DNA from: Bdellovibrio sp.
GTDB taxonomy: Bacteria; Bdellovibrionota; Bacteriovoracia; Bacteriovoracales; Bacteriovoracaceae
Length of the DNA: 64,000 nucleotides
Assembly: GCA_016187935.1 (NCBI GenBank)
Contig: JACPIU010000011.1
Span: 1-64,000 of the forward strand
Reading direction: 5' to 3'
In this document: piece by piece, positions 1,090 through 28,838 of the stretch
How positions within the stretch are numbered: the stretch's first letter is position 1
Layout: every line of letters begins with the position of its first letter
Program-made: the position numbers and the translations under genes
Notes under the pieces: generated by a model
What the model saw: only the letters and a program-made list of their open reading frames with translations
What the model was told of the DNA's origin: nothing
Databases searched by the model: none

Positions 1090-1772
1090 TTTGATGCCCC
1101 CCTTGCACTTCCTGGCATCCCGCGTTTTAGATTGTAGGATTGTTCCTTTTCAATTTGCTCTAAGCGTTTTTCTTCCATGTCTTCTGCAAGGAGGCGATTC
1201 GTCGTTGATACCTTCTCCAAAATTTCAAGTTGGGTTTTGTGCATATCCACGTTCGATTCATAGAGAAGTGCCGTATTCTGCGCCGTGAGCTGAGTCGCGC
1301 GCCCGGTTGTTCTGGCATTGATGGATTTTTCCACCTGGCCTTGGGCCATACGCTCTTTTTTTTGATTTACCTTTTTTTCTGATTTGACCTGTATTTTAGT
1401 TTTCTTTTCATCGCCCTTGATCTTGGCGTAGTCGCGCAAAAGTTCCTTCATGTCAGCAATTGAGTATTTAAGTTCCCGAATGGCTGAGTTAAGTTCGCCC
1501 AGGTCGTTAATTTCCTTTTTAGAAGCGAGGGACTCGGCCAGATATAAAATACGTTCGGCCCTAAAATACTCATCCTGAAATAGCTCGTTATAGTGCTGCA
1601 TTTTTTCAGTGTATTTTTCCGCGTTCGATACAAGTTTCTCAAGCTCATTTAATTGGCTCGCCGTAGTCGTAACCAGTTCAACCAAAAGTGCCGTATCAGA
1701 GCTAATGATTTGTCCATGTACGTTCAAGCTCAAAACAAAACTAAAAATGAAAAAGATTTTATGCATTTTCAT
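1086..1772 (-). CDS. VirB5/TrbJ-like secreted conjugation protein
   Basis: 228 aa with an N-terminal signal peptide ending near VHG, then an almost wholly helical, coiled-coil-rich body (Glu/Lys/Gln rich) and a basic tail. TrbJ/VirB5 proteins are periplasmic and help assemble the conjugative pilus. They typically show a signal peptide plus long helices and sit between VirB4/TrbE and VirB6/TrbL, exactly as here. Its start lies inside the end of the VirB4 gene (14-nt overlap) and its stop overlaps the next start. No catalytic motif is visible and sequence conservation in this family is low, so the name depends largely on position. Confidence 0.68.
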   Translation of the reverse strand: MKMHKIFFIFSFVLSLNVHGQIISSDTALLVELVTTTASQLNELEKLVSNAEKYTEKMQHYNELFQDEYFRAERILYLAESLASKKEINDLGELNSAIRELKYSIADMKELLRDYAKIKGDEKKTKIQVKSEKKVNQKKERMAQGQVEKSINARTTGRATQLTAQNTALLYESNVDMHKTQLEILEKVSTTNRLLAEDMEEKRLEQIEKEQSYNLKRGMPGSARGASK

Positions 1773-3636: not shown

Positions 3637-3883
3637 TTTTCACCTCCCATGCATCACTTAGAAAGATGTCTTTTTTCATAGGCAGCATCCATCCAATAAG
3701 ATCAAAGTTCTTACGGACGAATTTAAAAGTAAGGATCGCCAGAGCGCTTAAGCTGATACTTGCAAACGGGCGAAAATTAAAAAGCATGGAGAAGTACAGC
3801 ATCGCCATCAAAACGCATAAATCTGGAAATCCAAGGCCATAAAATTCTGGCAGTGATTTCAAAAATTTTGGATATTTTCTCAT
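3614..3883 (-). CDS. VirB3/TrbD-like small membrane protein
   Basis: 89 aa with two closely spaced hydrophobic helices (about residues 20-37 and 40-55) and charged ends. VirB3/TrbD/TraL proteins are short inner-membrane partners of VirB4 encoded between the pilin and the ATPase gene, which is this position. The start overlaps the pilin stop, and the 3' end overlaps the VirB4 start. There is no diagnostic motif; topology and order carry the call. Confidence 0.7.
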   Translation of the reverse strand: MRKYPKFLKSLPEFYGLGFPDLCVLMAMLYFSMLFNFRPFASISLSALAILTFKFVRKNFDLIGWMLPMKKDIFLSDAWEVKNDSTISR

Positions 3884-4143
3884 TAGGCCAATCCTTTGAT
3901 AAAGCTCAAGATAGATGGACTCAGCATCAGAATAAAAACGCCAAGAAGTGCCTGGGTCATTTTTTGGCCGGCATCTTGCCTGCCAATCATGAAGTAGACT
4001 GCTGAAAGCACCAGACCAAAGAGCGCCAGCCCAAAACCGATTCGAGTTGTTTCCTGTGCGAGCTTATCTGCCGAGGCCTTAAGACTCACGGCCCATGAGC
4101 TTGGGGCGAGCAAAAATAGAAAGAGCAAGAGTATTTTTTTCAT
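3883..4143 (-). CDS. VirB2/TrbC-like pilin subunit
   Basis: 86 aa: a cleavable signal peptide (hydrophobic stretch after MKK, likely cut after SSWA), then two hydrophobic helices separated by a short polar loop (GRQDAGQK). This is the standard VirB2/TrbC pilin layout, the subunit of the conjugative pilus. An AGGA ribosome site lies 6 nt before the ATG. It is followed by the VirB3-like gene with overlapping stop and start. Confidence 0.8.
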   Translation of the reverse strand: MKKILLLFLFLLAPSSWAVSLKASADKLAQETTRIGFGLALFGLVLSAVYFMIGRQDAGQKMTQALLGVFILMLSPSILSFIKGLA

Positions 4144-4151
4144 CTTTGTTC

Positions 4152-6053
4152 CTAGTTGAAGTAATTGTTAATGACTGAGGTAACGGCGATTTCCATGCCC
4201 TGGAAGTACGTCTTGTTCTCGCCGAGCTTGACCGCATTCCAGTTCACCCCGCCTCGCCATCCTCCGAATTCTGCCGATTCTACCGAGAGAGGAAAACCAG
4301 ATCGCGCAGAAAAATCAACGACCATCGGGATGCAATATCCGCGATCACGCCCGGTAAAACTATTCAGTTTGACGCCATGAAAAGTCGTGTTGGTAAACGC
4401 CATGATTTTTAAGGCGAGATTGGTCTCTTCTCCCGGCGTGACTTCTTTGATCTTTTCAATGTCAGGTATTCTCAAGTGTAGATTGCCATTCATGTTTTGA
4501 ATTTCAATTTTCTTATCCTTCATAAGCTGCTCAAGCGAATATTCGTCATGATCGACAATCAAATACATCCTTTTAAATTCTGCCGTTTCCGTTGTGAGCG
4601 TAAACTTTGGTTCAATTGGTTTAAAAAGATTAATACTTATCTCACAGACAAAATCGCGCGAAATACAATTTTGTCCGCATGAGCCACCTCGACTTATCCA
4701 AGCGTCCTGAAAGTTTCCAAGCTCCTCTCCAATTCTTTTCACTGGTTTTAATTGAAACTCAATCAGACTATTTTGAGAGGAAACACCGAGTGGGAAAATT
4801 GTGAAGCTCTCACTGGTTGAAAGGTTGGCCTCAAAAGAATAGATTTTTTCAAGACTCACGCTGGCGAGTTCTTTTCCCGTGGCATAGGTAAGAACAATGA
4901 CATCAATTGGTGTAAATTTATGATCAAGGTAAGTGGTCTTTAAGCGTTTCGTGAAAACAAACCATTTACCCGCTTTATCAAGGTCTGCGACTTCTTTTAG
5001 GTGAGTAAATTCAGAAAGATTGTTTCTCCACTCGCCGATCTGACTTAAGCGATCATCCTCGATTTTGACGTTTTTATCATACAGGATCGACAAAATTTGA
5101 GAGAATGTCGCTGGACGAGCATGAACACCATCAATCCCAACGTAAGACACAGAGGTGCCAAGAGGCGTCGTCACTATCACGGGCAGGCACTTCTCTTTTA
5201 CCGATGCTAAAAGAGTTCTATAGGTGGATTCGAGTTCTGGAATCTCATAGTCGGCGACTTCCGAGATAATGAACTCGCCTTTTTTAAAATAATTGTCCTC
5301 AATTAAAAGCGAGGGAACATTGTCTAACTCAACCTCGAAAGTTTCAACTACGCCTGCTTCAAAATGGCGTGAGACTACCTTGGCGGCGATAATCTCAAAA
5401 TTCTGTGTCTCGTAATTGTAATAATAGAAGTTAAGTTTGAGATTTTTGATCGATCGAAAATATCCATTCCCCTTAAGTTTAACCGTGTTTTCAAGCGTGA
5501 TTTTGAGATTAGTGATTTCAAAGTCAGCCGAGTCAAAATATTTCTTATATTTTAAGACTTGTTCCGAATAAAAAGCAGGATCAACGTCTGGATACTTTAC
5601 CCAAGATAGGTCGTGATCTTCGATTTCTCCAGAGGAATGTGACGAAAAACGGCCTACCGATGCCGCTGATCTTAGCGCATTGCCTCGAACAAAAAGTTCA
5701 CCCACTCGATACTTGAAGGAGGGGTTATTTCGTCCAACTCTTGTATCAATTTCGATTTTTGTGATTTCCCCTGTGGAAATTGATCTTGCATCAGCGGTAA
5801 TCTTATAGTTTTGCAGAAAGTTGATCGAGAGTTCGGGAATATCGGCCACTAGAGGATGGCGGCCCAAAGATAATTCGGCGGCATTTTTAACAAAGTCACC
5901 ATCGTTGTCCGCGTTTGGATCAAGGCCAGTCTCAAGAACTTCATGCCGTCCATCACCATGGCCCTGCTCAACGCCTTGGGAATTTTCATCAGTGTTTGAT
6001 TTCAAAGAACAAGAACAGAACAAGAAAACTAACAAAATAAGTAAAAACTTCAC
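4152..6053 (-). CDS. Large lipoprotein with a calcium-type DxDxDG segment, in T4SS operon
   Basis: 633 aa starting at GTG (6053), preceded by AGGGGG. The N-terminus is a lipoprotein signal with Cys in a FCSC context. Near residues 45-60 is DPNADNDGDF, a thrombospondin type 3-like calcium-binding segment, followed by ELSLGRHPLVAD. The rest is beta-rich with scattered Cys (the C-x-x-C and single Cys of the C-terminal third may form disulfides). No enzyme motif is seen. It lies 8 nt upstream of the pilin gene, so it is probably an outer-membrane or surface component of the conjugation apparatus, such as an adhesin or mating-pair factor. That role is inferred from position only. Confidence 0.6.
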   Translation of the reverse strand: MKFLLILLVFLFCSCSLKSNTDENSQGVEQGHGDGRHEVLETGLDPNADNDGDFVKNAAELSLGRHPLVADIPELSINFLQNYKITADARSISTGEITKIEIDTRVGRNNPSFKYRVGELFVRGNALRSAASVGRFSSHSSGEIEDHDLSWVKYPDVDPAFYSEQVLKYKKYFDSADFEITNLKITLENTVKLKGNGYFRSIKNLKLNFYYYNYETQNFEIIAAKVVSRHFEAGVVETFEVELDNVPSLLIEDNYFKKGEFIISEVADYEIPELESTYRTLLASVKEKCLPVIVTTPLGTSVSYVGIDGVHARPATFSQILSILYDKNVKIEDDRLSQIGEWRNNLSEFTHLKEVADLDKAGKWFVFTKRLKTTYLDHKFTPIDVIVLTYATGKELASVSLEKIYSFEANLSTSESFTIFPLGVSSQNSLIEFQLKPVKRIGEELGNFQDAWISRGGSCGQNCISRDFVCEISINLFKPIEPKFTLTTETAEFKRMYLIVDHDEYSLEQLMKDKKIEIQNMNGNLHLRIPDIEKIKEVTPGEETNLALKIMAFTNTTFHGVKLNSFTGRDRGYCIPMVVDFSARSGFPLSVESAEFGGWRGGVNWNAVKLGENKTYFQGMEIAVTSVINNYFN

Positions 6054-6283: not shown

Positions 6284-6397
6284 TCAAAGTTTTGAAGGCC
6301 AAAGCTGTAGGGCCTTGACCTTGTTCTGTTCGATTCTTTCTTGAACCTTCGGGCATACTGATAGGCGCAGGAATTTTTTAAAATATGCAAACTTCAT
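6284..6397 (-). CDS. 37-aa basic mini-protein, translationally coupled
   Basis: A very short frame starts at the ATG at 6397 and ends with TGA at 6284-6286. The ATG is preceded by GGAGG at ideal spacing and overlaps the stop of the zinc-ribbon gene as ATGA. The product is Lys/Arg-rich (begins MKFAYFKKFLRL) with one Cys. Evidence for translation is the ribosome site and overlap only; I do not recognise the protein. Confidence 0.42.
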   Translation of the reverse strand: MKFAYFKKFLRLSVCPKVQERIEQNKVKALQLWPSKL

Positions 6398-6606
6398 GGT
6401 GTGCCTCCTGAGATGACTCGAAGTTGGCGATCAATTTTCTTTGAATATTCGCGAAACTCAACTCGGGCCCAAGGTGGGATCATCTCTTCGCTTTCGTATC
6501 TGTCATGCACGAAGAGACAGTTCACACAATGAGAGTAGGTGATTAAATGCTCATACCCACGGTCCCCGCAATGCGGGCAAGTATCAAATAAAATTCCACG
6601 TTCCAT
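6394..6606 (-). CDS. Small zinc-ribbon protein, first gene of T4SS operon
   Basis: 70 aa with CPHCG near residues 10-14 and HCVNC near 26-30, a likely four-Cys zinc ribbon, followed by a charged helix. GGAGGAC lies upstream of the ATG. Such proteins often open conjugation or plasmid operons and may bind DNA or protein, but no target can be named. It is the first gene after the promoter region at 6607-6760. Confidence 0.6.
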   Translation of the reverse strand: MERGILFDTCPHCGDRGYEHLITYSHCVNCLFVHDRYESEEMIPPWARVEFREYSKKIDRQLRVISGGTP

Positions 6607-6651
6607 GTTCGTCCTCCGGTTTTTTTAATTTGGTCCCCTCACCTATATAGG

Positions 6652-6668
6652 ATCAAGAATCGTGCCAA
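6652..6668 (-). promoter_or_regulatory. Sigma-54-like element upstream of T4SS operon
   Basis: Read on the minus strand, TTGGCACG-ATTC-TTGAT matches the -24 block of a sigma-54 promoter perfectly, but has GA where the -12 block should have GC. It lies about 46 nt upstream of the start at 6606. A CTATATAGG palindrome is just downstream and could instead act as a -10-like element. Either reading is tentative. Confidence 0.35.
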
Positions 6669-6761
6669 CTTTTGTTTTGGAGAATTGAGTGAAGAATTAC
6701 GAATGGTTTGCGTTGCGTATAATTTTATTGCGAAAAATTTGCTCAAAAATTTGCGGAAATT

Positions 6762-6940
6762 GTGATGAACCATCGTCACAATTTTACCCAAATTTCCTAT
6801 GAAAATGGGTGATTCCTTTTTAGATTCGCGGAGTTTCAGAATGTGACGAGAATGTCGTCACGGCGAGAGTGAAAAAATTGCAAAAATGGGGGAAATCTTT
6901 TTTGATTCGAGGGGTTGGTTGTGTGACGAAATGTTGTCGC
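6762..6940. repeat. Three palindromes (GTGACGA-N4/5-TCGTCAC type), left flank of CRISPR locus
   Basis: Copies at 6762-6779 (one arm mismatch), 6843-6861 (perfect 7-bp arms, 5-nt centre) and 6923-6940 (two mismatches), spaced about 80 nt apart. The same palindrome occurs three times on the other side of the cas operon (13151-13324). They may be operators of one regulator or structural marks of the module. No gene covers 6669-6970 apart from these. Confidence 0.7.
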
Positions 6941-6970: not shown

Positions 6971-8120
6971 CTCTTTCACATTCCCGTAATCTCTTCGGCC
7001 TCAGACCTCACCGTCGGGTTGGCAATACAGCGAATGAGTTTGCTCTTTCACATTCCCGTAATCTCTTCGGCCTCAGACAACTGCTTAATATTCTTAGTTC
7101 TAATCTCAATCTACTCTTTCACATTCCCGTAATCTCTTCGGCCTCAGACCAATACAGCGTGAACCCAAAGCATCGGCAACACTACTCTTTCACATTCCCG
7201 TAATCTCTTCGGCCTCAGACTAACTGGCCATGCCCTTGGGCATCTGTTGCAGTCTCTTTCACATTCCCGTAATCTCTTCGGCCTCAGACAAAAAGAATTA
7301 CTCACCAAGAAACTTTATAAATTAAACTCTTTCACATTCCCGTAATCTCTTCGGCCTCAGACAGATACCTAGAAAATGAAAAAGCAGTTTTCCCACCTCT
7401 TTCACATTCCCGTAATCTCTTCGGCCTCAGACTTCCGTTATGACTTACCAATAGTCTTTCGCCTGTTACTCAATCTCTTCGGCCTCAGACAAACACCCGG
7501 CGAAAATAGATTCACAATCGGAGAACTCTTTCACATTCCCGTAATCTCTTCGGCCTCAGACGCAGTGTATGAATGTAAGTGCATGTGCGGGAAAGTCTTC
7601 TCTTTCACATTCCCGTAATCTCTTCGGCCTCAGACTGAATTAGAAAAAGAAACATCAGCTCTAGAAGGCAACTCTTTCACATTCCCGTAATCTCTTCGGC
7701 CTCAGACGAACTGCTTTTCAAGGGGCACAAATAAGATTTTACTCTTTCACATTCCCGTAATCTCTTCGGCCTCAGACAAGATCAACGCAGTCTTCAAGAC
7801 GCCGAACTAGCATACTCTTTCACATTCCCGTAATCTCTTCGGCCTCAGACTGTCCTGATAAATCATCTTTGACTCTTTCACATTCCCGTAATCTCTTCGG
7901 CCTCAGACGTGAGATTCTAAATTAAACCTAGACTTAAGCACTTCTCTTTCACATTCCCGTAATCTCTTCGGCCTCAGACTGTTGACCGGCAGCAACAGCG
8001 CCCAATCATGGGAACTCTTTCACATTCCCGTAATCTCTTCGGCCTCAGACTGTGATCTTCATCCACCTCGGCCAACCCTGCGTACTCTTTCACATTCCCG
8101 TAATCTCTTCGGCCTCAGAC
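6971..8120 (-). CRISPR. Type V CRISPR array, 17 repeats and 16 spacers
   Basis: Sixteen identical 36-nt repeats plus one variant. On the plus strand the repeat begins CTCTTTCACATTCCCG and ends TCTTCGGCCTCAGAC. Repeats start at 6971, 7043, 7114, 7185, 7254, 7327, 7397, 7455 (variant), 7526, 7600, 7672, 7742, 7815, 7873, 7944, 8015 and 8085. Spacers are mostly 33-38 nt; two are 22 nt (7433-7454 and 7851-7872). Because the cas operon and AT-rich leader lie at the right end, transcription is most likely on the minus strand, giving crRNA repeats that start GTCTGAGGCC. In that orientation the repeat shows only a weak internal stem, which suggests a separate tracrRNA rather than Cas12a-type self-processing. 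Confidence 0.98.
7455..7490 (-). repeat. Variant CRISPR repeat inside the array
   Basis: The last 19 nt (plus strand, AATCTCTTCGGCCTCAGAC) and the TCTTTC near the start match the standard repeat, but the 10 nt between are replaced by 11 unrelated nt. The preceding spacer is only 22 nt. In crRNA orientation the altered part is the half next to the spacer. Confidence 0.85.
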
Positions 8121-8268: not shown

Positions 8269-8538
8269 TCAAAAAACATAAATCTTTTCCGCACTCAAAT
8301 ATGCTCCAATTCTCAATATCTTAGCATCCTCCTCATTCGGGATCGGATATATAAAAAGTTTATCGTCTGCTCCTAGCTGGATGGCTGAAATCTCCTGTTT
8401 CATTGTCTGATAAACAGTCATTGGCATCTCTGCCTCGAAGACTGAAAACTGACAACGGGTTGCATACGCCTCTAGTACACCCACGAGAGTACGACGTATT
8501 TTATCATCGGAAACATCAAAGCAAATCAATAATCTCAT
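8269..8538 (-). CDS. cas2: CRISPR-associated endoribonuclease-like Cas2
   Basis: 89 aa, standard Cas2 length. It opens RLLICFDVSD, the first ferredoxin-fold strand with the conserved Asp, and continues with the RRTLVGVLEAYATRCQFSVFE pattern of helix 1 and strand 2. Cas2 dimerises and bridges two Cas1 dimers in the spacer-integration complex. The ATG overlaps the cas1 stop (ATGA). It is the last gene of the operon, 148 nt from the array. Confidence 0.96.
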   Translation of the reverse strand: MRLLICFDVSDDKIRRTLVGVLEAYATRCQFSVFEAEMPMTVYQTMKQEISAIQLGADDKLFIYPIPNEEDAKILRIGAYLSAEKIYVF

Positions 8539-9494
8539 GCTACCTTTTTTTCATTTTCTGTGATTAGTATTCCTTCATCAGGGGAATCAATAATCAAGTT
8601 ATAAATACTGCGAGCGAAGTCAAGCATTTGCTCTCGATGCTGATCATTAAAGAATTCAGAGCGAAAAAGTTTATAAAAATGGGTTCGCTTTTCTTTATTA
8701 TCAAATGAACACTCACTTTCAATGGTTTTAAAATCAGATGATTTAATTCCTATTTCTGCTATCGCAAAAAGAACATATTGATCCGCCAGTGTAGAGCGAA
8801 ACGGTTCCATAAGGTCACAAATTAATGATTCCCTTCCGTAGTAATCACGATGGAGAAAACCAAAGGCCGAATCAAATCCAAAGGTTCGTGCAACAATTCC
8901 GGCCTCAACAAACAATAGATTGTACGCCATTGAGAGCAGCGAATTTATAGGATCAGGTGATGGGTGAAATTTGCGACCTTCAAATTTCAACTTTAGATTT
9001 TCAATAATGGGAGCAAGGTTTTGAAAATATATTTTAGAATAGTGTCCCTCAATGCCAAGTAACTCTTCGTATCCTATGCAAGACGCGATTTTTTGCAAAA
9101 TTTCTTGGATATCTGGATATGCATAGCAAGAATGCATTGCCTCGATTTTGCAGGCCACAATTTCTTTTGAAATCCTCATTGTTTTTTCTAACGAGTTTGC
9201 GGCAAAGATTTGCGCTCTTCTAACAAAAATATTCTTATTCTTCGGCCCTTCAAAGCGTCCTTGGTATTTCCCTGCCCAATCAGAAAAAACGACCTCAACA
9301 CCATTTTGGTTTAAGTCAATGATTGCTTGAGATGAAAATGAACAGTGAGCATTGACCACGACAGCATCTAAGTCAAAATAATGAAAGAAAAACTTACTGG
9401 GGGACTCCTTTGTTTTTATATAAAGTTTATTATTTTCACATCCAATGAAATTTCCATAGCCGTCAATGTAAATAATCCTTCCAAGTTGTTTCAT
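8535..9494 (-). CDS. cas1: CRISPR adaptation integrase Cas1
   Basis: 319 aa, usual Cas1 length. The N-terminal beta-domain begins RIIYIDGYGNFIG. The C-terminal helical domain carries the metal-binding site: Glu in LLGIEGHYS, His in FGFLHRDYYG and Asp/Glu in LICDLMEPFR. It catalyses integration of new spacers with Cas2. The ATG overlaps the cas4 stop as TGATG and the 3' end overlaps cas2. It is separate from Cas4, not fused as in many V-B loci. Confidence 0.97.
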   Translation of the reverse strand: MKQLGRIIYIDGYGNFIGCENNKLYIKTKESPSKFFFHYFDLDAVVVNAHCSFSSQAIIDLNQNGVEVVFSDWAGKYQGRFEGPKNKNIFVRRAQIFAANSLEKTMRISKEIVACKIEAMHSCYAYPDIQEILQKIASCIGYEELLGIEGHYSKIYFQNLAPIIENLKLKFEGRKFHPSPDPINSLLSMAYNLLFVEAGIVARTFGFDSAFGFLHRDYYGRESLICDLMEPFRSTLADQYVLFAIAEIGIKSSDFKTIESECSFDNKEKRTHFYKLFRSEFFNDQHREQMLDFARSIYNLIIDSPDEGILITENEKKVA

Positions 9495-10066
9495 CAGTCA
9501 GCTCCACAAGTTTTTTCAAACATGCATCCGCTGCATCTTGAATCAAAAACTTGGTCAAATTTTGATAACGCGAAATCTTTGCACTTATCCTTAATTTCAT
9601 TATAGAGTGTCTCAATCTTATTTTTCGCATTATTATCCCAAGCGACAGTCCTGGTCCTTCGGCTCTTTTGGTAATAAATAAGACATGCCTCGATCTTGGG
9701 TTCTGGAAATGTTTCTTCAAAACAATATGCCTCTAGCTGGCACTGTAGATCATGCTGCTCGTTGCTTCTAAGACGCCCCCTTTTCTCTTCGATGATACGA
9801 ACTGTGTCTCCGCAATAAATTACGCGATCAATCTTGCCTGTCGCTTGAATTTTTTCGGATTTAACATAGATACTGCGTTTTTCGGGCAGGCCTTCTCTGT
9901 TGTATGAAACTTTTTTATCATCTAAACGCTGATGAGTTGACCGACCATCGACGATGAAATAGTTTTCATCTTCGTGCGGTTTAAATTCAATGAGACGATA
10001 TGCGAATGACCTCTGGCAGTAAACGTACTCACTTAGAAGGCTTATTCCGAAGTAGTTTTTTTCCAT
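9494..10066 (-). CDS. cas4: CRISPR-associated RecB-like nuclease Cas4
   Basis: 190 aa from the ATG at 10066, which overlaps the cas12 stop as TAATG; an upstream in-frame TTG (10078) is less likely. An N-terminal Cys in EYVYCQRSF and the C-terminal CSGCMFEKTC supply the four iron-sulfur ligands. GKIDRVIY and the EEKRGR segment form the RecB nuclease core. Cas4 trims prespacers and selects those next to a PAM before Cas1-Cas2 integration. Its presence shows the adaptation module is complete. Confidence 0.95.
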   Translation of the reverse strand: MEKNYFGISLLSEYVYCQRSFAYRLIEFKPHEDENYFIVDGRSTHQRLDDKKVSYNREGLPEKRSIYVKSEKIQATGKIDRVIYCGDTVRIIEEKRGRLRSNEQHDLQCQLEAYCFEETFPEPKIEACLIYYQKSRRTRTVAWDNNAKNKIETLYNEIKDKCKDFALSKFDQVFDSRCSGCMFEKTCGAD

Positions 10067-12762
10067 TATGCGGCCCAACTTTTCTCTTTAGTAAATTTTT
10101 GCCAATATTCCTTCTTGTTGGGCATTTCTTTTTGCATGTCTTTGATGACCCAATGCTTATAGGCAAGCCATTTTATTAAAATGTTTTCTGATGCCTGCAA
10201 ATCTGCATTGTCCCTATGTCCACATCCCGTACAAAAAAATTGCTCACCATTTCTACTTTTACGATCAATAAGACCGCACTTTCTACAAATTTGTGATGTG
10301 TAAGCAGGATGGATTTCGAAGATATGAAACGGAAGTTCGTAGAAATTTCTGTTATCTCGAATTGTTTTTATCATCTTATACATTTGGGTTAGCTCAACAT
10401 AGGCGTTCGTGCCCTGGCGCTTTAGTTTGCTATCAATAAATTCAAAAACAAGAGAACAATAACGTTTATCTTTCCTTGCAGGAATGGAGTATTTAAGTGC
10501 CAAAGCTACAAGGTCAGCCATTGCATTATCAACAAATGATTTTACAGTGCCTGAAATTTTTTGATCAATTCTTCTAATCTTGATTGGGTTAGGGGCTTCG
10601 GAACGGGCCTGTGCTTGGTCTTTTTTTAATTCATCAATTTTACTTTTAAAACCTGCCCCGAGAGGAATTCGCTCTAATAATTTCATATCATCTAGGTCGT
10701 AGACAGCAGCGCACAAGAGGGTGTTTTCTCCTCTATCTAAACCAATGAGATACCTCGTTTGTTTAACAAGATAATCTGCTCTGCCTTCTTGTGTTTTTAT
10801 TTTTTCTGGATACTGAAGTAGCTTGTTCGCAAACCGACGCTTCACCATAGCAAATGAACCCCTAATCTCTGGGCAAGCATTGACTTTATATCTAATAAAG
10901 AAATTTGGAGTCCCTAGTTTCGTAGTCATTAGATCATTGCGATCCAAGACTTTTTTTGTAATTCCTATTGAGTGATTAAAAAAAAATTTGCGCCCAATTC
11001 TTTTTGAGAAGTGAACAGGCAGATTGATTATTGGCGCACGTAAATCTCTTGTTGCTTGTACTACTTCTCCATCATCTTTAAACTCATAGTATTGAATGGA
11101 ATTTTCAGTCATTTTATTATCATCGTTTCCACTCTGGATCACCAGATTGAACTTATAGTTTCCCAGTCCATCAGCAGCAATTTGTGGAAAAATATCCGCT
11201 TGATCAAAATTTTTGAATTGAAAACTAAACTGCTTATATGGTCTAGTTTTTAAAAGTGACATTTGCAGATCACCACAAATCTTTTTGATTTCTCCATCAA
11301 GCTGAAAAATCCGATAATCATCTTTGTAGTTTCTAGAATTTAATTCCAGCCTTAAATGCTTTTGCATGTGAGAAGCAAGTTGCCTCATTCGTGTTGCATT
11401 TAGATTGCTGAAACTCACGATATTTTGTATCTTCGCAGCTAAATATTTAGATTCTTTTTCGAGAGAAGATTCAAGAGCATCTAGCGTATTCTCAAAAATA
11501 ATGGGTCTAAGTATTCTCTTCTTATGAGAGATGATCTGATTGGAATTTTCTTCATTTTTTAATTCCAAAAACTGCTCTTTTAACATTTCTAAGGTAATGG
11601 CCTTGGGATCTTGTCGTAATATTTTCTCTGTTGCTCTTGTTTCATCGAATTTCTTTTTCCTAAGCTCGTTTAGGAGGTGCTGATATTGTAGAATTGCATC
11701 TTGAAGGACATTATCTTTCGATTTGTCTCGGTAATATGTCGAAGGACGAAATGTTGGCGGAGAAGGGTATTTTTTGATCTCTTTTAATGTCTTTATGGGA
11801 CCCGATCTAAAATCTTTCCATTTTTTCTCTAGTTCATCTCGATCTAGTTTGTTTGGTAATTCTTTTTGTGCCAAGAACTTTCTAAAGTCTTTGACCCTTT
11901 TAAAATTCTGTCCCGTCTCTTTAGAAAGCTCCTTAAGTGCATGATCTGTACACCCACCGAGGTAACCACCAAGATATACATTTAGTTGGCGTATAAAAAT
12001 ATTGTGCTCTTTTACTCCCTCATATCCTTTAAGTTGCTTGATTTTTCCTACTGAATCTATTTCAAAATTTTTTAATTTCGGAAGTCTAGCAAGAGCTTTC
12101 TCGATTAGTAGTCGTTTTGCTTTCTTCTCGTCCCATTTTTTCAGTTCTGCTTTGATTACTGAATTAAATATTTCCAAACTAACAGTTCCATCTTCATCTG
12201 TGTCAGATACCCAAGTATCGAAAATATTCTTTTTTTGATCTCCTCCAGCCATTTTCATCAGGGCCAGGTAGCTGCTAATTTTTGGTTCTAAGTCGTAGGC
12301 AATCCACCATGGAGCTTTACTTTGATTAATGTGCGCATATTGACCTTTCGATTTAGCGATCACACTTTTAGCAATCTGGTGAATATAGGCTTTCAATCTG
12401 TATTGTTGTGTACTTTTTTCTGTACCAACTCCTGTGTTTTTTAAAAATTTTCCAAACGTCACAGCGTCTAGCTCATTCCATAGACCAACGGATCGACTAA
12501 GTTCATTCCAAGTGAGGAAGCGAATATCATTCAAGTCCTCAAAAAATTTACAAATTGCATTATGCTCTTGATCAGTTACTCCTTCTTTTTCTTTCTCTGC
12601 CGATTGCTTTTCGACGAGAAAAGAAAAAGATTTTGCATCCCCATGGGCCTCGTCATTACTTTCCCCCGCTATCGGATTCCTTCTCGTATCGTTATATAGT
12701 AATTTGTCTCCTGTTGCCTCCATCATGTAGGAGAGCAGGCTTCGATCTTTTTTAACTGACAT
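10066..12762 (-). CDS. cas12: Cas12 family RNA-guided nuclease, subtype unresolved
   Basis: 898 aa single-protein type V effector. RuvC-I is IGLDRGEN (Asp about 676), RuvC-II is LVFEF (Glu about 774) and RuvC-III is ADLQASENI (Asp about 854). Between II and III is a compact zinc ribbon, Cys about 826, 829, 844 and 847. All catalytic residues are present. The N-terminal 650 residues are helical and charged, with no HNH domain. By memory the RuvC motifs most resemble Cas12e (GVDRGEN, FGRQG then QYTKM, HADEQAALNI; here KRQG then MYKM). However, the large insertion in the Cas12e ribbon is missing, the protein is about 80 aa shorter, and the N-terminal half is unlike it. A compact V-E relative, V-L or a new subtype are all possible. 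AAGGAG precedes the ATG; it is first in the operon. Confidence 0.93.
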   Translation of the reverse strand: MSVKKDRSLLSYMMEATGDKLLYNDTRRNPIAGESNDEAHGDAKSFSFLVEKQSAEKEKEGVTDQEHNAICKFFEDLNDIRFLTWNELSRSVGLWNELDAVTFGKFLKNTGVGTEKSTQQYRLKAYIHQIAKSVIAKSKGQYAHINQSKAPWWIAYDLEPKISSYLALMKMAGGDQKKNIFDTWVSDTDEDGTVSLEIFNSVIKAELKKWDEKKAKRLLIEKALARLPKLKNFEIDSVGKIKQLKGYEGVKEHNIFIRQLNVYLGGYLGGCTDHALKELSKETGQNFKRVKDFRKFLAQKELPNKLDRDELEKKWKDFRSGPIKTLKEIKKYPSPPTFRPSTYYRDKSKDNVLQDAILQYQHLLNELRKKKFDETRATEKILRQDPKAITLEMLKEQFLELKNEENSNQIISHKKRILRPIIFENTLDALESSLEKESKYLAAKIQNIVSFSNLNATRMRQLASHMQKHLRLELNSRNYKDDYRIFQLDGEIKKICGDLQMSLLKTRPYKQFSFQFKNFDQADIFPQIAADGLGNYKFNLVIQSGNDDNKMTENSIQYYEFKDDGEVVQATRDLRAPIINLPVHFSKRIGRKFFFNHSIGITKKVLDRNDLMTTKLGTPNFFIRYKVNACPEIRGSFAMVKRRFANKLLQYPEKIKTQEGRADYLVKQTRYLIGLDRGENTLLCAAVYDLDDMKLLERIPLGAGFKSKIDELKKDQAQARSEAPNPIKIRRIDQKISGTVKSFVDNAMADLVALALKYSIPARKDKRYCSLVFEFIDSKLKRQGTNAYVELTQMYKMIKTIRDNRNFYELPFHIFEIHPAYTSQICRKCGLIDRKSRNGEQFFCTGCGHRDNADLQASENILIKWLAYKHWVIKDMQKEMPNKKEYWQKFTKEKSWAA

Positions 12763-12782
12763 GGCTTCTCCTTATTATTAAA

Positions 12783-12805
12783 GAGGGGGCATTAACCGCC
12801 CCCTC
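12783..12805 (-). terminator. Strong hairpin in the cas12 leader
   Basis: A perfect 8-bp GC stem (GAGGGGGC / GCCCCCTC) with a 7-nt loop, followed on the minus strand by TTTAATAAT and then the cas12 ribosome site. It can end a short upstream RNA or act as an attenuator for the cas operon. Confidence 0.6.
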
Positions 12806-12890
12806 AAATAATTGGAATGTGTGGAAGTTTTTATCCCTTTTTGAGGGGGTATACCGAGGAACTTCCTAAAGAGAAATGCGGAATACCGCT
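12783..12890 (-). ncRNA. Candidate tracrRNA upstream of cas12
   Basis: Two patches on this strand are complementary to the crRNA repeat. 12869-12884 shares AAGAGA and GGAAT at the same spacing as the repeat (11 of 16 positions), and 12814-12821 matches its GGAATGTG exactly. The terminator-like hairpin at 12783-12805 follows. The patches are short and in non-collinear order, so this is a weak candidate. Confidence 0.25.
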
Positions 12891-13085
12891 TTTAGAACAA
12901 ACCTGGCATCCACTATTCGTCGATTTCCAGTTGAACTTTAGTCCATTCGTAATTACTTTTTGCCCGAGTTTTTTAAGGATTTCTCTAACGATGAAATCAA
13001 CTATTATGCCATGCGGGGTGTTTGTTCTACCTACGGTGTGTGTTTCAGTCGGATTAATTGAAGATGCCGCATACAATTGCCCCAT
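12831..13085 (-). CDS. Hypothetical 84-aa protein upstream of cas12 (doubtful)
   Basis: An open frame in the same direction as the cas operon, with a plausible helix-strand composition and a CQVC pair near the C-terminus. There is no clear ribosome site before the ATG at 13085, and I do not recognise the protein. It overlaps the candidate tracrRNA region. It may be a gene remnant or chance. Confidence 0.25.
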   Translation of the reverse strand: MGQLYAASSINPTETHTVGRTNTPHGIIVDFIVREILKKLGQKVITNGLKFNWKSTNSGCQVCSKSGIPHFSLGSSSVYPLKKG

Positions 13086-13150
13086 GAGATCGAAGTAGTA
13101 CGATCTCCATGAGGTAACTTTTCAATTGAAGATAAGAATTGGTTCATTCG

Positions 13151-13324
13151 ATGACGAGATTTCGTCACGCTGAAACCGTGCAATTTAGAACCCTTCGGGC
13201 CATTACCAAAAAAAGCGACGGAACTTCGTCATTTTCTGAAAACCCGACCTAACGCGGTGATATTAAAAAAGAATTTCCTGGCAAAGGCTTTCAAAACGTC
13301 CAAATCATGACGTGTTTTCGTCAC
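13151..13324. repeat. Three palindromes, right flank of CRISPR locus
   Basis: Copies at 13151-13168, 13215-13232 and 13307-13324, all of the form (A/G)(T/C)GACGN-N4-TCGTCA(C/T) with 7-nt arms and a 4-nt centre. They match the left-flank set at 6762-6940. They lie between the CRISPR locus and the sigma-54 promoter at 13399, so they could serve either unit. Confidence 0.7.
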
Positions 13325-13398
13325 AATTTGAATTATCAAAACTGCCATGATACGTAGCGCAAGCAATAATTTCTGAGGGATAGATAATTTTTCATATT

Positions 13399-13414
13399 TG
13401 GCACACCGATTGCT
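13399..13414 (+). promoter_or_regulatory. Sigma-54 promoter
   Basis: TGGCACA-CCGA-TTGCT, with GG at 13400-13401 and GC at 13412-13413, is a near-consensus -24/-12 element. Transcription should start near 13425, 25 nt before the response-regulator ATG. As that regulator is itself a sigma-54 activator, the operon is probably self-activating. Confidence 0.8.
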
Positions 13415-13448
13415 TAAGGCCTGGTCAAACTTAACAGGGGAATTATTT

Positions 13449-14924
13449 ATGAGTAACAATGCACGGCAGAGAATCTTGGTTGTAGATGATCACGAATCGG
13501 TCTTGGAGGCCTTCAGACAAAATTTACAAGATGAAGATTATTGTGTGGATTATTTCATTTCAGGACTTAAGGCCTATCGGCATTTTTCCATGAGTCCATC
13601 TGAGTACGTCATGGCCTTTGTTGACTACAACCTCCTGCCTTCCGATGAGGAGTTCGCCGACGGGAGTACGCTGATCCGCAGGTTGAAAAAACTCAATGAA
13701 GATTTGATCGTGATCCTCATCTCCGGCGACACTTCAGAAGAGGCGTATCAAAAATGGCTTGATGCCGATGTGGACAAGGTACTCTATAAACCCGTCAGTA
13801 AGCAAAAAATTATTGCAAGCATCAGAGCGGCATTCGCCAAGTATGATAATGGAAGTGGCCCGCAAAAAATTTCTTCGGGCGACACGGATTATGCCAAACA
13901 AATCGGTATGGTCGGTGCCTCTGACGATTTTCAAAATACAGCAAGAAATACCCTAAAATACGCGGAAGTCGATTCTGACGTTTTGATTTTAGGCGAGACT
14001 GGTACAGGCAAAGAGCTTATCGCTAAGGCCATTCATAAGAATTCCAAGAGGGCCAAGCATGGAAAATTTGTGGCCATCAATTGCGCATCTTTTAAGGGGG
14101 ATGCCCATTTAATGGAATCAGAACTTTTTGGCCATGAGAAGGGGGCGTTCACGGGGGCCGTAGCAACGAAGATCGGAGTTTTTGAAGTGGCACATGGTGG
14201 CACAGTTTTCCTCGATGAAATTCATCATTTAGGCCATGACGGCCAGGCGAAACTTTTACGTGCCTTGCAAGAGCGAAAAATTAAGCGGGTTGGTGCTACC
14301 AAAGAATTTGCGGTTGATTTTCGTTTAATTTGCGCCGGAAAGCCCAAGCTAAAAGAAATGTGCAAAGGTGCCGACGCCGAATTTCTGCCGGACTTATTTT
14401 ACCGAATCTCTAATGTGGATATAGTGATCACTCCACTTCGAGAAAGGCCTGAGGATATTGTGCCGCTCTTAATGCACTTTAAGAATAAGGTTGAAGAAGA
14501 GTTAAGTGTGAAAAAAGAATTTTCCAAATCGGCGATGCTCGCCTTGAAAACCTACAATTGGCCTGGCAATATCCGCGAACTTGAGAATATGATTCATGGG
14601 CTGTATGTGACAGTGGAGGATAAGATAATTAAGCGAATTCACCTCTCCGATGATGTCTTGCAGGCCAAATCAATGAATGAGGCCATTGCGGAGTTAAACC
14701 TTGAGGCCCTGGAAACATTGCAGAACATGCAGATCAAGAAGGTGATTCTCGCCTCGCTTAAGAAAAATGAGCATAATATAAAACAGGTCGCAGTCGAGTT
14801 AAAGGTAAAAAGAACCACTTTGAATTCAAGAATGAAGTCGCTGGGAATTTTCGATTCTGGCCCTGCTGAACGGGATGGGATGCTGAAGGCAATAATTGAT
14901 AATTTTAGAAGCTTTAGAATGTAA
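13449..14924 (+). CDS. NtrC-family sigma-54 response regulator
   Basis: 491 aa from the ATG at 13449, preceded by AGGGG; a longer frame from 13398 would overlap the promoter. It has a receiver domain (residues 1-130) with acidic pair VVDD, phosphoacceptor Asp59 in FVDYN, Ser in LISGD and Lys in YKPVS. The AAA+ domain has Walker A GETGTGKE, the sigma-54 contact loop GAFTGA and Walker B GTVFLDE. A Fis-type helix-turn-helix ([18 protein letters not shown]) is at the C-terminus. When phosphorylated it should drive open-complex formation at sigma-54 promoters. The hybrid kinase at the operon end is the likely partner. Confidence 0.95.
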
Positions 14925-14936
14925 AGGATGGAACAG

Positions 14937-15419
14937 ATGAAAAAACAAATTTTGACTCTCTCGATTATCTCGTCGGTTCTCAATCTTAATGCTGCTTTGG
15001 CAGGTGAGCAGGGGATACAAAAGCAGAGTGGTGCCATCAAGGTGCAGGCAGATTTTTCTTGGGGAGCTGGTGACGGGGAAAGGTTATGGTTTCCTGAACT
15101 GGAAAACTATGAACTTCAAGATCGCATTATTCATGTGGTGAAAGCGTTGATTGATGCAAGTCAACTCCATGCTGATGGCATGGTTTTGGAGAAGGCCTTG
15201 AACAGACTTAAAATGCAGGTTTTGGTGTTGGATAGTCTGTACCCGGAGCATGCCGCGAGTGTGAAGCGGAAAATTGTGGATGAGTTATTGCGGGCGGGTG
15301 TCATCGTAAAAGATGATAACTCGTTTACGCTAAGCGATTCGATTGTGCACGAGCTAGAGGAGCGCGGAATTGTCACTGATATTTATGCCAAGAGAGGTGG
15401 AATTTGTATAGAAGTTTAA
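14937..15419 (+). CDS. Small secreted protein, possible modified-peptide precursor
   Basis: 160 aa from the ATG at 14937; AAGGA is well placed for it, whereas an ATG at 14928 is too close. The signal peptide ends near NAALAG. The mature part is mostly helical with an LHADG turn, a DELLRAGV segment and C-terminus AKRGGICIEV with the only mature Cys. I do not recognise the family. With a YcaO gene two genes on, the GG followed by a Cys-containing tail invites the idea of a peptide precursor, but a plain periplasmic protein is equally possible. It is 12 nt after the regulator gene and overlaps the next gene by 16 nt. Confidence 0.6.
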   Translation: MKKQILTLSIISSVLNLNAALAGEQGIQKQSGAIKVQADFSWGAGDGERLWFPELENYELQDRIIHVVKALIDASQLHADGMVLEKALNRLKMQVLVLDSLYPEHAASVKRKIVDELLRAGVIVKDDNSFTLSDSIVHELEERGIVTDIYAKRGGICIEV

Positions 15420-16954
15420 AAACGACATTCCTCGCTATGAGTTTTTCCATTTCGTGCGTAAGTAATTTCGGACCAAAGGATAATCATACTATGAAACTTA
15501 GAGTGGCATTTCCTTATGATAAATCGGTTAATCAGTACGAACCGACTCGGATTCATTTTTCTCCAGAATATATTTTTCTTGAGAATGTCTTTAGTCCGTT
15601 GATTGAACTATCTACGGCCAATGGACAGCCAGTTGGAGGAGTGGCAGAAAAGTTTCAGTGGGATGAAAAGACAAATGAGTTTTATCTATACATCCGAAGA
15701 AACCTGATGACGATTGATGGCCATCAGATTACCGCTTACGATGCAGAGTTTTCGCTTAAGCGCCTGCTGGTTTTGTCGAGTAATACCCATGGCAATTTTA
15801 AAGATATAATTTGCCCAGACGTTGAAATTAAGTCTATTGAATCGGCGTGTCCAGGTATTGAGGTCAAAAACGATTTTACCCTCGTCCTTAGGCCAGGTAA
15901 GAAGATGCCATTCTTGACCCATCTCTTGACCGCCATTGACTTTGCCGTGATTCCAAAAAAATCGGTAGACCCGAAAACGCTGGCGATTTTGGATTATAAA
16001 AATACCTCAGGGCCATATTATGTGGATTCATCAGATGACAAGGGGAGGATCAATCTACGTGCCAATCCCGGACATTATCATTATACACAGAACCTACCAC
16101 AAGAGATTGAACTGATCCCAAGTAGAGTAAACAAAGAAAAATCTTCTATAGATTTATATAAGGAAGGAAAAGTCGATCATCTCATGACTATTGAAGGTAT
16201 TGGACCAGAAAAAACTCTGCAAATTGCTCAGGAGTTGAGTGATGCCTCATTACACACGACCATGGATATAAAAATGATGGCAATCTTCTTCACAGAACGT
16301 GGGCTAAAGGAATTGTCGGCTGAAGAACGCCTTGCCTATGGTAAAGCGATCAAAGGAATTGTTGGCACTTATTTTCTTTCCCAACCTGGGTATCAAAATC
16401 GGACTCAATTTCTTGCACCTTTTGGTGATGGGCAATTGTCGAAATCGCAACAAGAGGAACTTAATGAAATAATAAAAAAAATCAACCAGCCGAAGAAAAG
16501 CATACAATTTGAGCTGTCCCTCTTTAGATATGTCCCCATTGAAGTCTTAAAAGAGCAATTGGAAATGTTATTACCGGGGATTCATGTATATCAGGAAAAT
16601 AAAATCCCCGCGTTTGCAGGATACAAGTCCCTTAAAGAAATTCCTCATGCATTTGTCGCCAATGTGGATATCTCCTTTAATGAAGATATTTCTCTCATCA
16701 CTTATGCAATCAATGCCGGACTCTTTGGGATGAATAAAGCCGAGCAAAAACATTGGATTAAGGATTATATGTCCATCATGGATAAGGAAAAGCGTCTGGA
16801 GAAATTGCAACTGTTGCATTTTGAGTCACTAAAAAATGGTGTCGTGTATCCCCTGGTATCGTCGCCGTATATCGCGATTCTGCGTAAACCATGGGTGAGT
16901 CATCTCCCCCAAATTTTTGCCAATAACCCACTATGGACAATATCAAAAAATTAA
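15404..16954 (+). CDS. Family 5 extracellular solute (oligopeptide)-binding lipoprotein
   Basis: 516 aa starting at TTG (15404), supported by AGAGGTGG 6 nt upstream. A short hydrophobic start with SISC suggests a lipoprotein. The family 5 (OppA/DppA) pattern is clear: an N-terminal FSPEYIFLENVFSPLIE segment, LYIRRNLMTIDGHQITAYDAEFSLKRLL, and a later SGPYYV strand. These proteins bind peptides in the periplasm, usually for an ABC importer. No permease or ATPase gene is nearby, so it may work as a sensor subunit. Its end overlaps the YcaO gene by 22 nt. Some family members bind haem or nickel complexes instead. Confidence 0.85.
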   Translation: MYRSLKTTFLAMSFSISCVSNFGPKDNHTMKLRVAFPYDKSVNQYEPTRIHFSPEYIFLENVFSPLIELSTANGQPVGGVAEKFQWDEKTNEFYLYIRRNLMTIDGHQITAYDAEFSLKRLLVLSSNTHGNFKDIICPDVEIKSIESACPGIEVKNDFTLVLRPGKKMPFLTHLLTAIDFAVIPKKSVDPKTLAILDYKNTSGPYYVDSSDDKGRINLRANPGHYHYTQNLPQEIELIPSRVNKEKSSIDLYKEGKVDHLMTIEGIGPEKTLQIAQELSDASLHTTMDIKMMAIFFTERGLKELSAEERLAYGKAIKGIVGTYFLSQPGYQNRTQFLAPFGDGQLSKSQQEELNEIIKKINQPKKSIQFELSLFRYVPIEVLKEQLEMLLPGIHVYQENKIPAFAGYKSLKEIPHAFVANVDISFNEDISLITYAINAGLFGMNKAEQKHWIKDYMSIMDKEKRLEKLQLLHFESLKNGVVYPLVSSPYIAILRKPWVSHLPQIFANNPLWTISKN

Positions 16955-17895
16955 AATATTGGATTTCTGTCAACGCAGAAACGCTTAAGCTTCAAGTGGA
17001 GCGCATGCGCTGGGTGGATGACTGGTTTCCGGGGTATTTTGACTTTGCTGTGAGTGCCCAGGTTGATGGCCAGATATTCACGGGGCGTGGGATTGCTGGG
17101 GATGAGGATACGGCCTTCTTAAAAGCGTTGTCAGAAATGGTGGAGCGTGTGTACTGCTTCTATCATAAAATTGGAAGCAACGGTGTGGCGGCCCACCCTG
17201 ATAGAGACCAAGCAATCTTGAACGCCAAGAAGGAATTGATTGAGCGGGATGCTGTCCTTTGCCACACGTTGACCAATACACCCTTTTTTCATTTTTTAGC
17301 ACATGACCTGAAAGAATATCATTTTATAATGGATCATCTTTCTACAAAAGGCGTATCACTAAAATTGGCGCAGGCACACTCATCCGTACCAGACCTCTCG
17401 GTTGTTATCTGTACAACTTCAGGCGAGGGAATCCCGGGCCAGCTTTTTGGGTTTGGTTGTGACCATGATCTACAACGTGCCTCTTTGAAGGCCATTTTTG
17501 AATGTATGCTAAATTCTGTCGCCATCCTTGAAGGCCATGACAAGCTTCCACCGTTGCGGATGACAGAATTTTTAGAAATGAAAGTGCATGGTCCAGACGA
17601 GCATAAGCGGGTCCATTTTACCGAGAAATTGTTTTGCTTTAACACTGGGAGCACTTGTTTGCTCCCGCGACCCGGCTTAACAATTGATGATATTTCCACC
17701 CATGAGCTATTAAGTCCGATGACACTTTTTGACTCAATTCCTTTGACCGTCATGAAAGCACAGTCCGGTGCGCTTCAAAAGATGTTCTATGGGCCTCCAA
17801 AAATAGAGAACGTGAACATAAACCGGCTCACCAACTTCGCTGGCCGAACTTTAACAATTTCAGACTTGGTGAGTATCACTCACCCAATAGGATAG
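16933..17895 (+). CDS. YcaO-domain ATP-dependent peptide-backbone modifying enzyme
   Basis: 320 aa. YcaO hallmarks are in order: GRGIAGDEDTAFLKALSEMVERV near residues 50-70, SNGVAAHPDRDQAILNAKKELIERDA near 84-110 and ASLKAIFECMLN near 190. These make the ATP site, where Glu and Arg of ExxxR-type motifs bind Mg-ATP. YcaO enzymes activate a backbone amide to form azolines, thioamides or amidines. The C-terminus lacks the Pro-rich PxPxP tail of azoline-forming members, and no E1-like partner gene is adjacent. It starts inside the binding-protein gene and ends 2 nt before the kinase, so it is translated from the same message. Confidence 0.88.
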   Translation: MDNIKKLKYWISVNAETLKLQVERMRWVDDWFPGYFDFAVSAQVDGQIFTGRGIAGDEDTAFLKALSEMVERVYCFYHKIGSNGVAAHPDRDQAILNAKKELIERDAVLCHTLTNTPFFHFLAHDLKEYHFIMDHLSTKGVSLKLAQAHSSVPDLSVVICTTSGEGIPGQLFGFGCDHDLQRASLKAIFECMLNSVAILEGHDKLPPLRMTEFLEMKVHGPDEHKRVHFTEKLFCFNTGSTCLLPRPGLTIDDISTHELLSPMTLFDSIPLTVMKAQSGALQKMFYGPPKIENVNINRLTNFAGRTLTISDLVSITHPIG

Positions 17896-17897
17896 TT

Positions 17898-19457
17898 ATG
17901 GCAAATGATAAAAAACTAACCAAACATTTTATCTCGCTTTCCATTGTCGTTGGGGGGCTGCTTCTGTTAATCACGGCCGTTTCCGTGCTGTCTTATGTAT
18001 ACGCCACCAAGCGCGAGAGTGCGTTTCATGTGTCCAAGGTTGTCGAGGGGATGCTCAAGGCCCACCAATATCGTGAGGCGATCTATGCGCTTTCAAACGC
18101 GAAACTCGGCAGCTTTGATGCCATCGGGTATTATGACTTCGAGGGCAACCCCGTATTTGTCCTTCCACCGAGCGTAGGACCTGATTACTTTAAAGAAAAC
18201 GGTAAGGGGTTGAATCGGCTCTTTACCACGACCATCCCTGTTGATATTGACTTTGATGAGGCAGGCCAGAATCGTGCTGGTAAAATTTTTTATGCGTACA
18301 ATAACACCAATGCAGTCTCGTCGATTTTTCTTGTCTGGGTCATTGGACTCTTATGTTTTCTTCCCGTTTTTTATAAGTACAAAACTTTAATAAAAAGTGG
18401 CATTGAACGCGATATTCTGGATGAAAAGAATCGAGGAATCAAAGAGACCGTGAGACAGGTCTGGCACGATTTAAACCAGCCCATGCAATTTCTCTATGCA
18501 TTGGCGGAAAGTGGAAAAGACATAGGAGACTTTGAGCGCGACAAGATTAAAAGTTCTTGTGATGATATGCGCTCCATCTTGGATGATTTGAAAGAGAAAA
18601 AAAACAAGCTTGGTGAGGGGAAAACCGCGACGATTTGCCTCGCCGCCGCGATTAAGGAAATTGTTGAGAAAGAAAATCTGAAGCTTTCAAAAATGAAGAT
18701 GACAGTTAAATTATCCATCACGAAGGATGGTCTTTCGGCGTTCTCTGATATTAACGAAAGTGATTTGAAAAGGATTCTTGGAAACATCATCGACAATGCC
18801 GCACATGCCAGTACCGAAGGGGACACCATCCAGGTCACGCTTGAGCATTTAAGCGAAATGAATATCGTCAGAGTAACGGATCAAGGCCATGGGATTAAAC
18901 TGGAGCAGTTATCCCAGATTGGAAAACGTGGAGTGTCGTTTAGAACAGGCGGCAACGGTCTTGGACTCAGCTATGCGATCAGCAAAGTCGAAAGCTGGGG
19001 TGGTAGGCTTGAGATTGAGTCTGTTTATCAACAGGGCACCACTGTAACGGTCAAAATTCCAAGCGTGGCCATTCCCGAGTGGTTTACCGCCGGGATGGCC
19101 CTTGATGGTGCTAAGGAATTTATTTTGACAGATGACCGAGCAGATATGCATCTGTTGGTTCAGGATGCGTTGAAAGAAAATCACGGCCATCTTGAAAAGT
19201 ATTTTCACCAGACATCCGAGGAGTTTGAGACGTGGTTCTTAAAAAACAAAAATGCGCTGCACTCCCCAGTTTTTGTTTTTGATTATGATCTTGGCCAGGA
19301 CGAAAAAACAGGGATAGATTTGATCGAGGAGTTTGGACTTCAGGCGAATTCAATTCTGATGACCAACTTTCATGATGATGCGTTTGTGCAAGCGAAGGTG
19401 ATGAAGGCCGGAGTGAGGATGTTTCCAAAGGCCTTGGTGGAGTTTGTTGGAGGGTGA
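17898..19457 (+). CDS. Hybrid sensor histidine kinase with C-terminal receiver
   Basis: 519 aa. Two membrane helices (about 11-36 and 140-160) bracket a 100-residue periplasmic sensor. The phospho-accepting His190 lies in VWHDLNQPM. The ATPase domain has N box NIIDNAAHAS, G1 TDQGHGI and G2 GGNGLGLS. A receiver domain follows from about 400, with the acid pair in LTDDRAD, Asp in VFDYDLGQ, Thr in LMTN and Lys in FPKAL. It probably passes phosphate to the regulator at 13449. Location at the end of the operon with a binding protein and a YcaO enzyme suggests its signal is a peptide or its modified product. Confidence 0.93.
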   Translation: MANDKKLTKHFISLSIVVGGLLLLITAVSVLSYVYATKRESAFHVSKVVEGMLKAHQYREAIYALSNAKLGSFDAIGYYDFEGNPVFVLPPSVGPDYFKENGKGLNRLFTTTIPVDIDFDEAGQNRAGKIFYAYNNTNAVSSIFLVWVIGLLCFLPVFYKYKTLIKSGIERDILDEKNRGIKETVRQVWHDLNQPMQFLYALAESGKDIGDFERDKIKSSCDDMRSILDDLKEKKNKLGEGKTATICLAAAIKEIVEKENLKLSKMKMTVKLSITKDGLSAFSDINESDLKRILGNIIDNAAHASTEGDTIQVTLEHLSEMNIVRVTDQGHGIKLEQLSQIGKRGVSFRTGGNGLGLSYAISKVESWGGRLEIESVYQQGTTVTVKIPSVAIPEWFTAGMALDGAKEFILTDDRADMHLLVQDALKENHGHLEKYFHQTSEEFETWFLKNKNALHSPVFVFDYDLGQDEKTGIDLIEEFGLQANSILMTNFHDDAFVQAKVMKAGVRMFPKALVEFVGG

Positions 19458-28837: not shown

Positions 28838-28838
28838 G

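Follow-up and report, generated by a model that had tools for sequence, protein, structure and literature searches.

Palindrome triplets as probable enhancer sites of a response-regulator bEBP upstream of its own operon and of T4SS genes in Bdellovibrio sp.

In a 64,000-nucleotide stretch of a Bdellovibrio sp. contig (JACPIU010000011.1; hereafter the window), one palindrome occurs in two triplets, each of them followed at a set distance by a -24/-12 promoter. One of these promoters precedes the five-gene operon of a response-regulator bEBP, the other the divergent T4SS genes. Comparison of related loci indicates that the palindromes are very probably (rough probability 0.85) the upstream activating (enhancer) sites of the bEBP encoded at 13449, through which it would switch its own operon and the T4SS genes. 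The features of the window are collected in Table 1. G000 is the own genome, G002 the sister species, and C and L with a number designate contigs and loci.

Table 1. Features of the window and their positions (distances run from the palindrome to the -24 element)
Feature	Position	Strand	Remark
VirB4/TraC-type ATPase	1759..3636	-	
89-aa protein in VirB3 position	3614..3883	-	no Pfam match
VirB2/TrbC pilin-like protein	3883..4143	-	24.4 bits, below Pfam cut-off 27.9
633-aa lipoprotein-like protein of T4SS operon	4152..6053	-	homologue near G061 array
70-aa CxxC protein, first ORF of left operon	6394..6606	-	
Sigma-54-like promoter of T4SS operon, TTGGCACGATTCTTGATC	6651..6668	-	GG-N10-GA
GCARCGCAAAC element	about 6680-6730		also L041 about 8555-8590; L144 about 1940-1975
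Left palindrome, proximal	6762..6779		93 bp
Left palindrome, middle	6843..6861		174 bp; 19 bp with 5-nt spacer
Left palindrome, distal to T4SS promoter	6923..6940		254 bp
CRISPR array, between the two triplets	6971..8120		
cas2-cas1-cas4-type V effector	8269..12762	-	absent from sister G002
Right palindrome 1 (distal), ATGACGAGATTTCGTCAC	13151..13168		229 bp (from 3' end)
Right palindrome 2, GCGACGGAACTTCGTCAT	13215..13232		165 bp
Right palindrome 3 (proximal), ATGACGTGTTTTCGTCAC	13307..13324		73 bp
Sigma-54-type -24/-12 promoter of regulator operon, TTGGCACACCGATTGCTT	13398..13415	+	GG-N10-GC
bEBP: receiver, Sigma54_activat AAA+ with GAFTGA, C-terminal HTH_8 (just under Pfam cut-off)	13449..14924	+	
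163-aa protein, signal-peptide-like N-terminus (by inspection)	14928..15419	+	C-terminal ...GGICIEV
SBP_bac_5 peptide-binding-type protein	15404..16954	+	
YcaO-domain protein	16933..17895	+	
Sensor histidine kinase (HATPase_c)	17898..19457	+	

The three right and three left copies share the consensus RTGACGA-N4/5-TCGTCAY, an imperfect palindrome. The initial annotation had noted three right copies within 13151-13324, and these were confirmed, with exact starts at 13151, 13215 and 13307; in both triplets the tandem palindromes lie roughly 70-250 bp upstream of a -24/-12 element. The plus-strand sigma-54-type promoter that it put downstream of the right triplet was also found; some 33 bp separate it from the start codon of the regulator, and the -24/-12 element is identical in the sister species (L042). 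With a weight matrix, six sites in the window scored at least 25 against 0.2 expected per 64 kb from Markov shuffles, a comparison that is partly circular because the matrix was drawn from the same sites; the cleaner test is provided by loci found by protein search alone (see below). In the own genome, 85 matches with at most three mismatches stood against 94 for the reversed control, and this lack of excess shows that the motif is not a general or dispersed repeat. The best matches were clustered at the window locus and at C28:88326/88394/88485, and a strict search for TGACGN6CGTCA recovered just two of the sites, both at the window locus. A CRP site (TGTGA..TCACA) was considered and rejected because the palindromes have a spacing of 10, not the 6 of the CRP consensus.

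The matches on C28 form a third triplet, located upstream of a gene for a TraD-like coupling protein; this coupling protein is encoded on another contig than the T4SS genes of the window. The left T4SS promoter element is nearly repeated before this gene. The pattern TGGCACN5TTGM had 43 matches in the own genome versus 11 for the control, and when all 43 were examined, three had at least two palindromes within 320 bp upstream, namely the two promoters in the window and that of the coupling-protein gene on C28. The sister species carries another array before a coupling-protein gene (G002-C31), and the three paralogues most similar to the C28 coupling protein in the two genomes (L063, L068, L069) have no array. 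The T4SS-side promoters keep the -24 element, with GA at -12 in the window and on C28 and GT in G002-C31. Between array and -24, the T4SS and coupling-protein promoters share a conserved element around GCARCGCAAAC, which could be the site of a second factor.

When 129 genomes of the family were searched with the bEBP (E<=1e-90), matches were obtained in six genomes, and arrays were found at the bEBP loci of G000, G002, G039 (two copies), G065 and G136. No array was present in G137, whose bEBP (44% identity) has a diverged helix (EKRSTLSSTIKKYGI). All six bEBP promoters have a proximal site at 73 bp and a second one at 163-165 bp, measured to -24, and the third site is at 229-243 bp; in G039-C75 the proximal site, with a score of 21.0, stayed below the cut-off of 21.5. 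The 73 and 163-165 bp spacing is kept in three genera beyond the own and sister genomes, mostly together with divergent T4SS genes. On the T4SS side the distances are 93/174/254 bp in both G000 and G002, and the nearest site is 119-122 bp from -24 in G065, G039-C21 and G136. The coupling-protein arrays lie at 94/175/254 (G002-C31) and 104/195/263 bp (C28).

Fifteen of the 16 promoters tested beat all 2000 dinucleotide shuffles. Four of these 15 supplied the matrix, and those of C28, G002-C31, G061 and G081 were found by motif search; with the matrix- and motif-derived promoters set aside, the fair test rests on the eight promoters found by protein alone (G065, G039, G136), seven of which beat all 2000 shuffles. 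The exception, the divergent promoter of G039-C21 with one site, was reached by 45 of 2000. A de novo palindrome-pair statistic that is blind to the motif gave 0/1000 shuffles each for G136 (both sides), G039-C75 and G217, a member of another family discussed below. It failed on both window promoters (G000_R, G000_L), on G065 and on one G039 promoter (G039a), since it requires more symmetry than their sites possess.

In a scan of the family that allowed at most one mismatch, 41 of 129 genomes gave matches, many of them singles and several of these before an IS transposase, so that the scan offers no clean test of presence or absence. The strong singles G136:C95 and G039:C21:70577 fall inside ORFs, and further singles occur at G137:C80 and G039:C38. 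In 13 further loci the singles are mostly intergenic, several of them directly before an apparent IS transposase start, and that in L162 is inside an ORF. A near-identical palindrome, GTGACGAATTTTCGTCAN, stands just before an apparent IS transposase start in L153, L155, L157-L159 and L161, and not at sigma-54 promoters. Arrays with sigma-54-like promoters were also found in G061 and G081, where the best bEBP matches reach only 36-39% identity and differ in their helices. The G061 array precedes an FtsK-type gene followed by genes for a Mom-like protein, an HTH_17 protein and an integrase; that of G081 precedes MobC, relaxase and integrase genes. Arrays without a close bEBP may reflect incomplete assemblies or a recent arrival of the elements. 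An RHS-like C-terminal piece is encoded near the G061 array (L150 9498-10526), and a 2727-aa RHS-repeat protein is encoded beside the bEBP operon of the window (20696-28879, minus strand).

In the T4SS operon of the window, the P-loop_TraG model scored above its cut-off, and TraC-F scored 109 versus 567, below. In G065, G039-C21 and G136 a divergent T4SS operon also adjoins the bEBP gene, and encodes a Sigma70_r4-type protein, a weakly TIGR03756-like protein, a T2SSE-type ATPase and a TraF-like protein (families were searched for the G065 members, and the others were named by similarity to G039). On the divergent side of G039-C75 the contig breaks off after the Sigma70_r4-type gene.

The recognition helix provides a further line of evidence. 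One nearly invariant bEBP helix (S to T once in G136) accompanies the RTGACGA sites. The G039-C75 paralogue has the helix KRTTLISRMQALDIY, with N to I among the changes, and some of its sites read GTGTCGA; the mixture of GTGTCGA and GTGACGA sites at this paralogue (L059 875-1176) is a natural case of covariation. In two other families (G217 and G238) the bEBP helix is KRSTFIW[HV]LKDL, and sites of the form RTATCAA-N4-TTGATAY precede the bEBP gene, 96/195/273 bp (G217) and 95/271 bp (G238, found using the motif of G217) from -24. T4SS operons are located near these regulators too, each with a site and a sigma-54-like element. In G217 a site lies 83 bp from the weak element TTGGTACAGCCATTGAAA, one of the two sites there (score 11.5) being at chance level; in G238, where the T4SS genes were assigned from their position and from their resemblance to VirB4 of G217 and to the sig4 family, a single site lies 140 bp from TTGGCACAGCCTATGTAA. 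Across the sequences compared, the site changes with the recognition helix.

Taken together, the spacing fixed in several genera, the third array and the covariation of helix and site strongly support the proposal of the initial annotation that the NtrC-type regulator uses the palindromes as enhancer sites. Its suggestion that the left copies link a T4SS promoter to the same regulator is likewise strongly supported by the comparison, although the promoter itself departs from the expected form, with GA rather than GC at -12. The arrays that lack a close bEBP in G061 and G081, and the scarcity of arrays at the other loci of the regulator's gene cassette (see below), also speak against the proposal.

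The AAA+ domain of the regulator scored 193.9 bits with PF00158 and HEKGAFTGA is present in the translation; the C-terminal HTH_8 scored 21.8 bits, just below the Pfam cut-off of 22. It heads a cassette (window 13449-19457; L206-L225) in the order bEBP, Cys-tailed secreted small protein, SBP_bac_5, YcaO and histidine kinase, which recurs across families of the phylum, the SBP being found in 31 of 368 phylum genomes (E<=1e-60). The order bEBP, SBP, YcaO, kinase was observed in 16 of 20 further SBP-matched loci; of the remaining four, L218 is cut by the contig end after the SBP gene, and L210, L225 and L219 (at a contig edge) are without a bEBP match. Exact GAFTGA occurs in 13 of 17 cassette bEBPs. 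Sixteen other cassette loci have enough sequence upstream of the bEBP gene (L206 has just 106 bp); 14 are without an array, the exceptions being G217 and G238, and only four of the 16 have a sigma-54-like site scoring at least 20.5 there. A search of the plasmid collection with the cassette SBP (E<=1e-20) gave no match.

The 163-aa small protein had no match among the families searched. Its C-terminal Cys is invariant in 6/6 aligned orthologues, and the protein has [ILV]C at or close to its end in 6/6 loci of alignment A1 and, by reading, in 19/20 other loci (partial in L219, LC in L224), L218 being the one without such an end. The YcaO domain is present (PF02624, 56 bits versus a cut-off of 25.7), whereas the TOMM-specific model TIGR03604 gave 46.9 bits versus 219; since this is below the TOMM cut-off, membership of the RiPP/TOMM class is not claimed. 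A cassette of Cys-tailed secreted protein, SBP, YcaO and kinase headed by a bEBP suggests peptide-signalled control of the T4SS, and because it contains YcaO and the Cys-tailed protein, a modified peptide is the natural guess for the signal.

The palindromes bracket a CRISPR-Cas locus, and the initial annotation had tied them to a cas promoter and operon. Neither part of this was supported. The closest palindrome is 389 bp away from the cas12 start (12762), and the minus strand of this interval yielded neither a sigma-70-like site nor a sigma-54-like site with a score of 20 or more. The sister species, Bdellovibrionales bacterium GWA2_49_15 (MEPP01000030.1), aligns on both sides of the region and has no counterpart of 8176-13142 and no cas genes there, yet it keeps all six palindromes and both promoters. 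The palindromes are therefore independent of cas, and a role in regulating the CRISPR array and cas operon is very improbable. A single relic CRISPR repeat with array-side flank remains in this genome (L042 about 1330-1365). Inspection by eye of the ORFs listed for orthologous loci in other genera showed no cas genes. The CRISPR-Cas locus looks like a passenger or bystander between the arrays and not a target of the regulon. Its 898-aa type V effector (10066-12762, minus strand), encoded with Cas4-Cas1-Cas2, scored 51.5 bits with the Cas12e model NF045604 (cut-off 200) and has only remote similarity, to Cas12e and to the C-termini of Cas12f/TnpB; it possibly represents an unclassified subtype. 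Between cas12 and the palindromes lies an 84-aa ORF (12831-13085, minus strand) with no Pfam match.

Two other explanations concern the palindromes themselves. They might be operators of another DNA-binding protein acting as a repressor, for example the Sigma70_r4/KORA-like protein, whose gene is the first of the T4SS operon in G065, G039, G136, G217 and G238 and which in G217 gives a weak match (E 0.0012) to the model of the TrfB/KorA repressor. However, tblastn (E<=1e-3) revealed no such gene in the window or in L042, where both triplets are intact, and conservation of the protein is only about 40% between genera with one and the same site, in contrast to the nearly invariant bEBP helix. We consider such a repressor unlikely. 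Still less likely is that the palindromes are ends of mobile elements, REP-like repeats or terminators. They can fold as hairpins, two terminator-like matches overlap 13216-13231 and, as described above, look-alike singles precede transposase genes in other genomes; against this, only two of the six fold better than shuffles (z below -2.9), no transposase adjoins the window palindromes, no transposed copies were seen elsewhere, and neither the fixed distance to -24 in several genera nor the count in the own genome fits scattered repeats.

If the palindromes are enhancer sites of the bEBP, the histidine kinase would phosphorylate the bEBP, which would bind the palindrome array cooperatively and, by looping, contact sigma-54 RNA polymerase at both promoters. 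It would thereby switch on its own operon, a positive feedback on the cassette, and would also activate the T4SS operon and the coupling-protein operon elsewhere in the genome. A wider and much more tentative picture is a peptide-signal circuit operating across several families. A YcaO-modified C-terminal Cys peptide of the secreted protein might be sensed via SBP and kinase, and the bEBP, acting through multi-site arrays that co-evolve with its helix, might then activate the sigma-54 promoters of operons for T4SS, for coupling proteins and, in G081, for a relaxase; integrative elements of the G061/G081 type might plug in by carrying the same arrays.

As far as the consulted portions of PMC8657755 and PMC4878744 go, the system resembles NtrC/LuxO-type sigma-54 enhancer systems in its response-regulator bEBP with GAFTGA, its -24/-12 promoter, the tandem palindromic sites 70-260 bp upstream and the cognate-looking histidine kinase. 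It differs from them in that the targets are T4SS/transfer genes and the regulator shares its operon with YcaO, SBP and a Cys-tailed secreted protein. No characterised bEBP is known to have the site RTGACGA-N4-TCGTCAY. Peptide pheromones can control the conjugation of Gram-positive plasmids; the present case likewise connects DNA transfer with a peptide-binding SBP and with what may be a peptide signal, but involves YcaO, a histidine kinase and sigma-54, and its peptide is a prediction. As in RiPP/TOMM clusters with YcaO (TIGR03604 family), a YcaO-domain protein is encoded beside a small protein, here with an invariant C-terminal Cys; unlike in those clusters, the YcaO protein is far below the TOMM cut-off, and the small protein, whose N-terminus resembles a signal peptide, has no family match. 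The titles and opening lines of abstracts of open papers contained no description of sigma-54/bEBP control of T4SS in the phylum or of the cassette, and term look-ups in PMC12316311 gave no mention of conjugation, type IV secretion, T4SS, Bdellovibrio or YcaO. Enhancer arrays are already known; the T4SS target set with the cassette was not found in the open papers covered.

With these arrays, T4SS control in an under-studied phylum would gain a defined DNA code together with its regulator and its targets, and would be tied to a cassette of YcaO and a Cys-tailed small protein, of which the same papers gave no description. If the proposed circuit is true, a modified-peptide signal would switch DNA transfer in the phylum through sigma-54.
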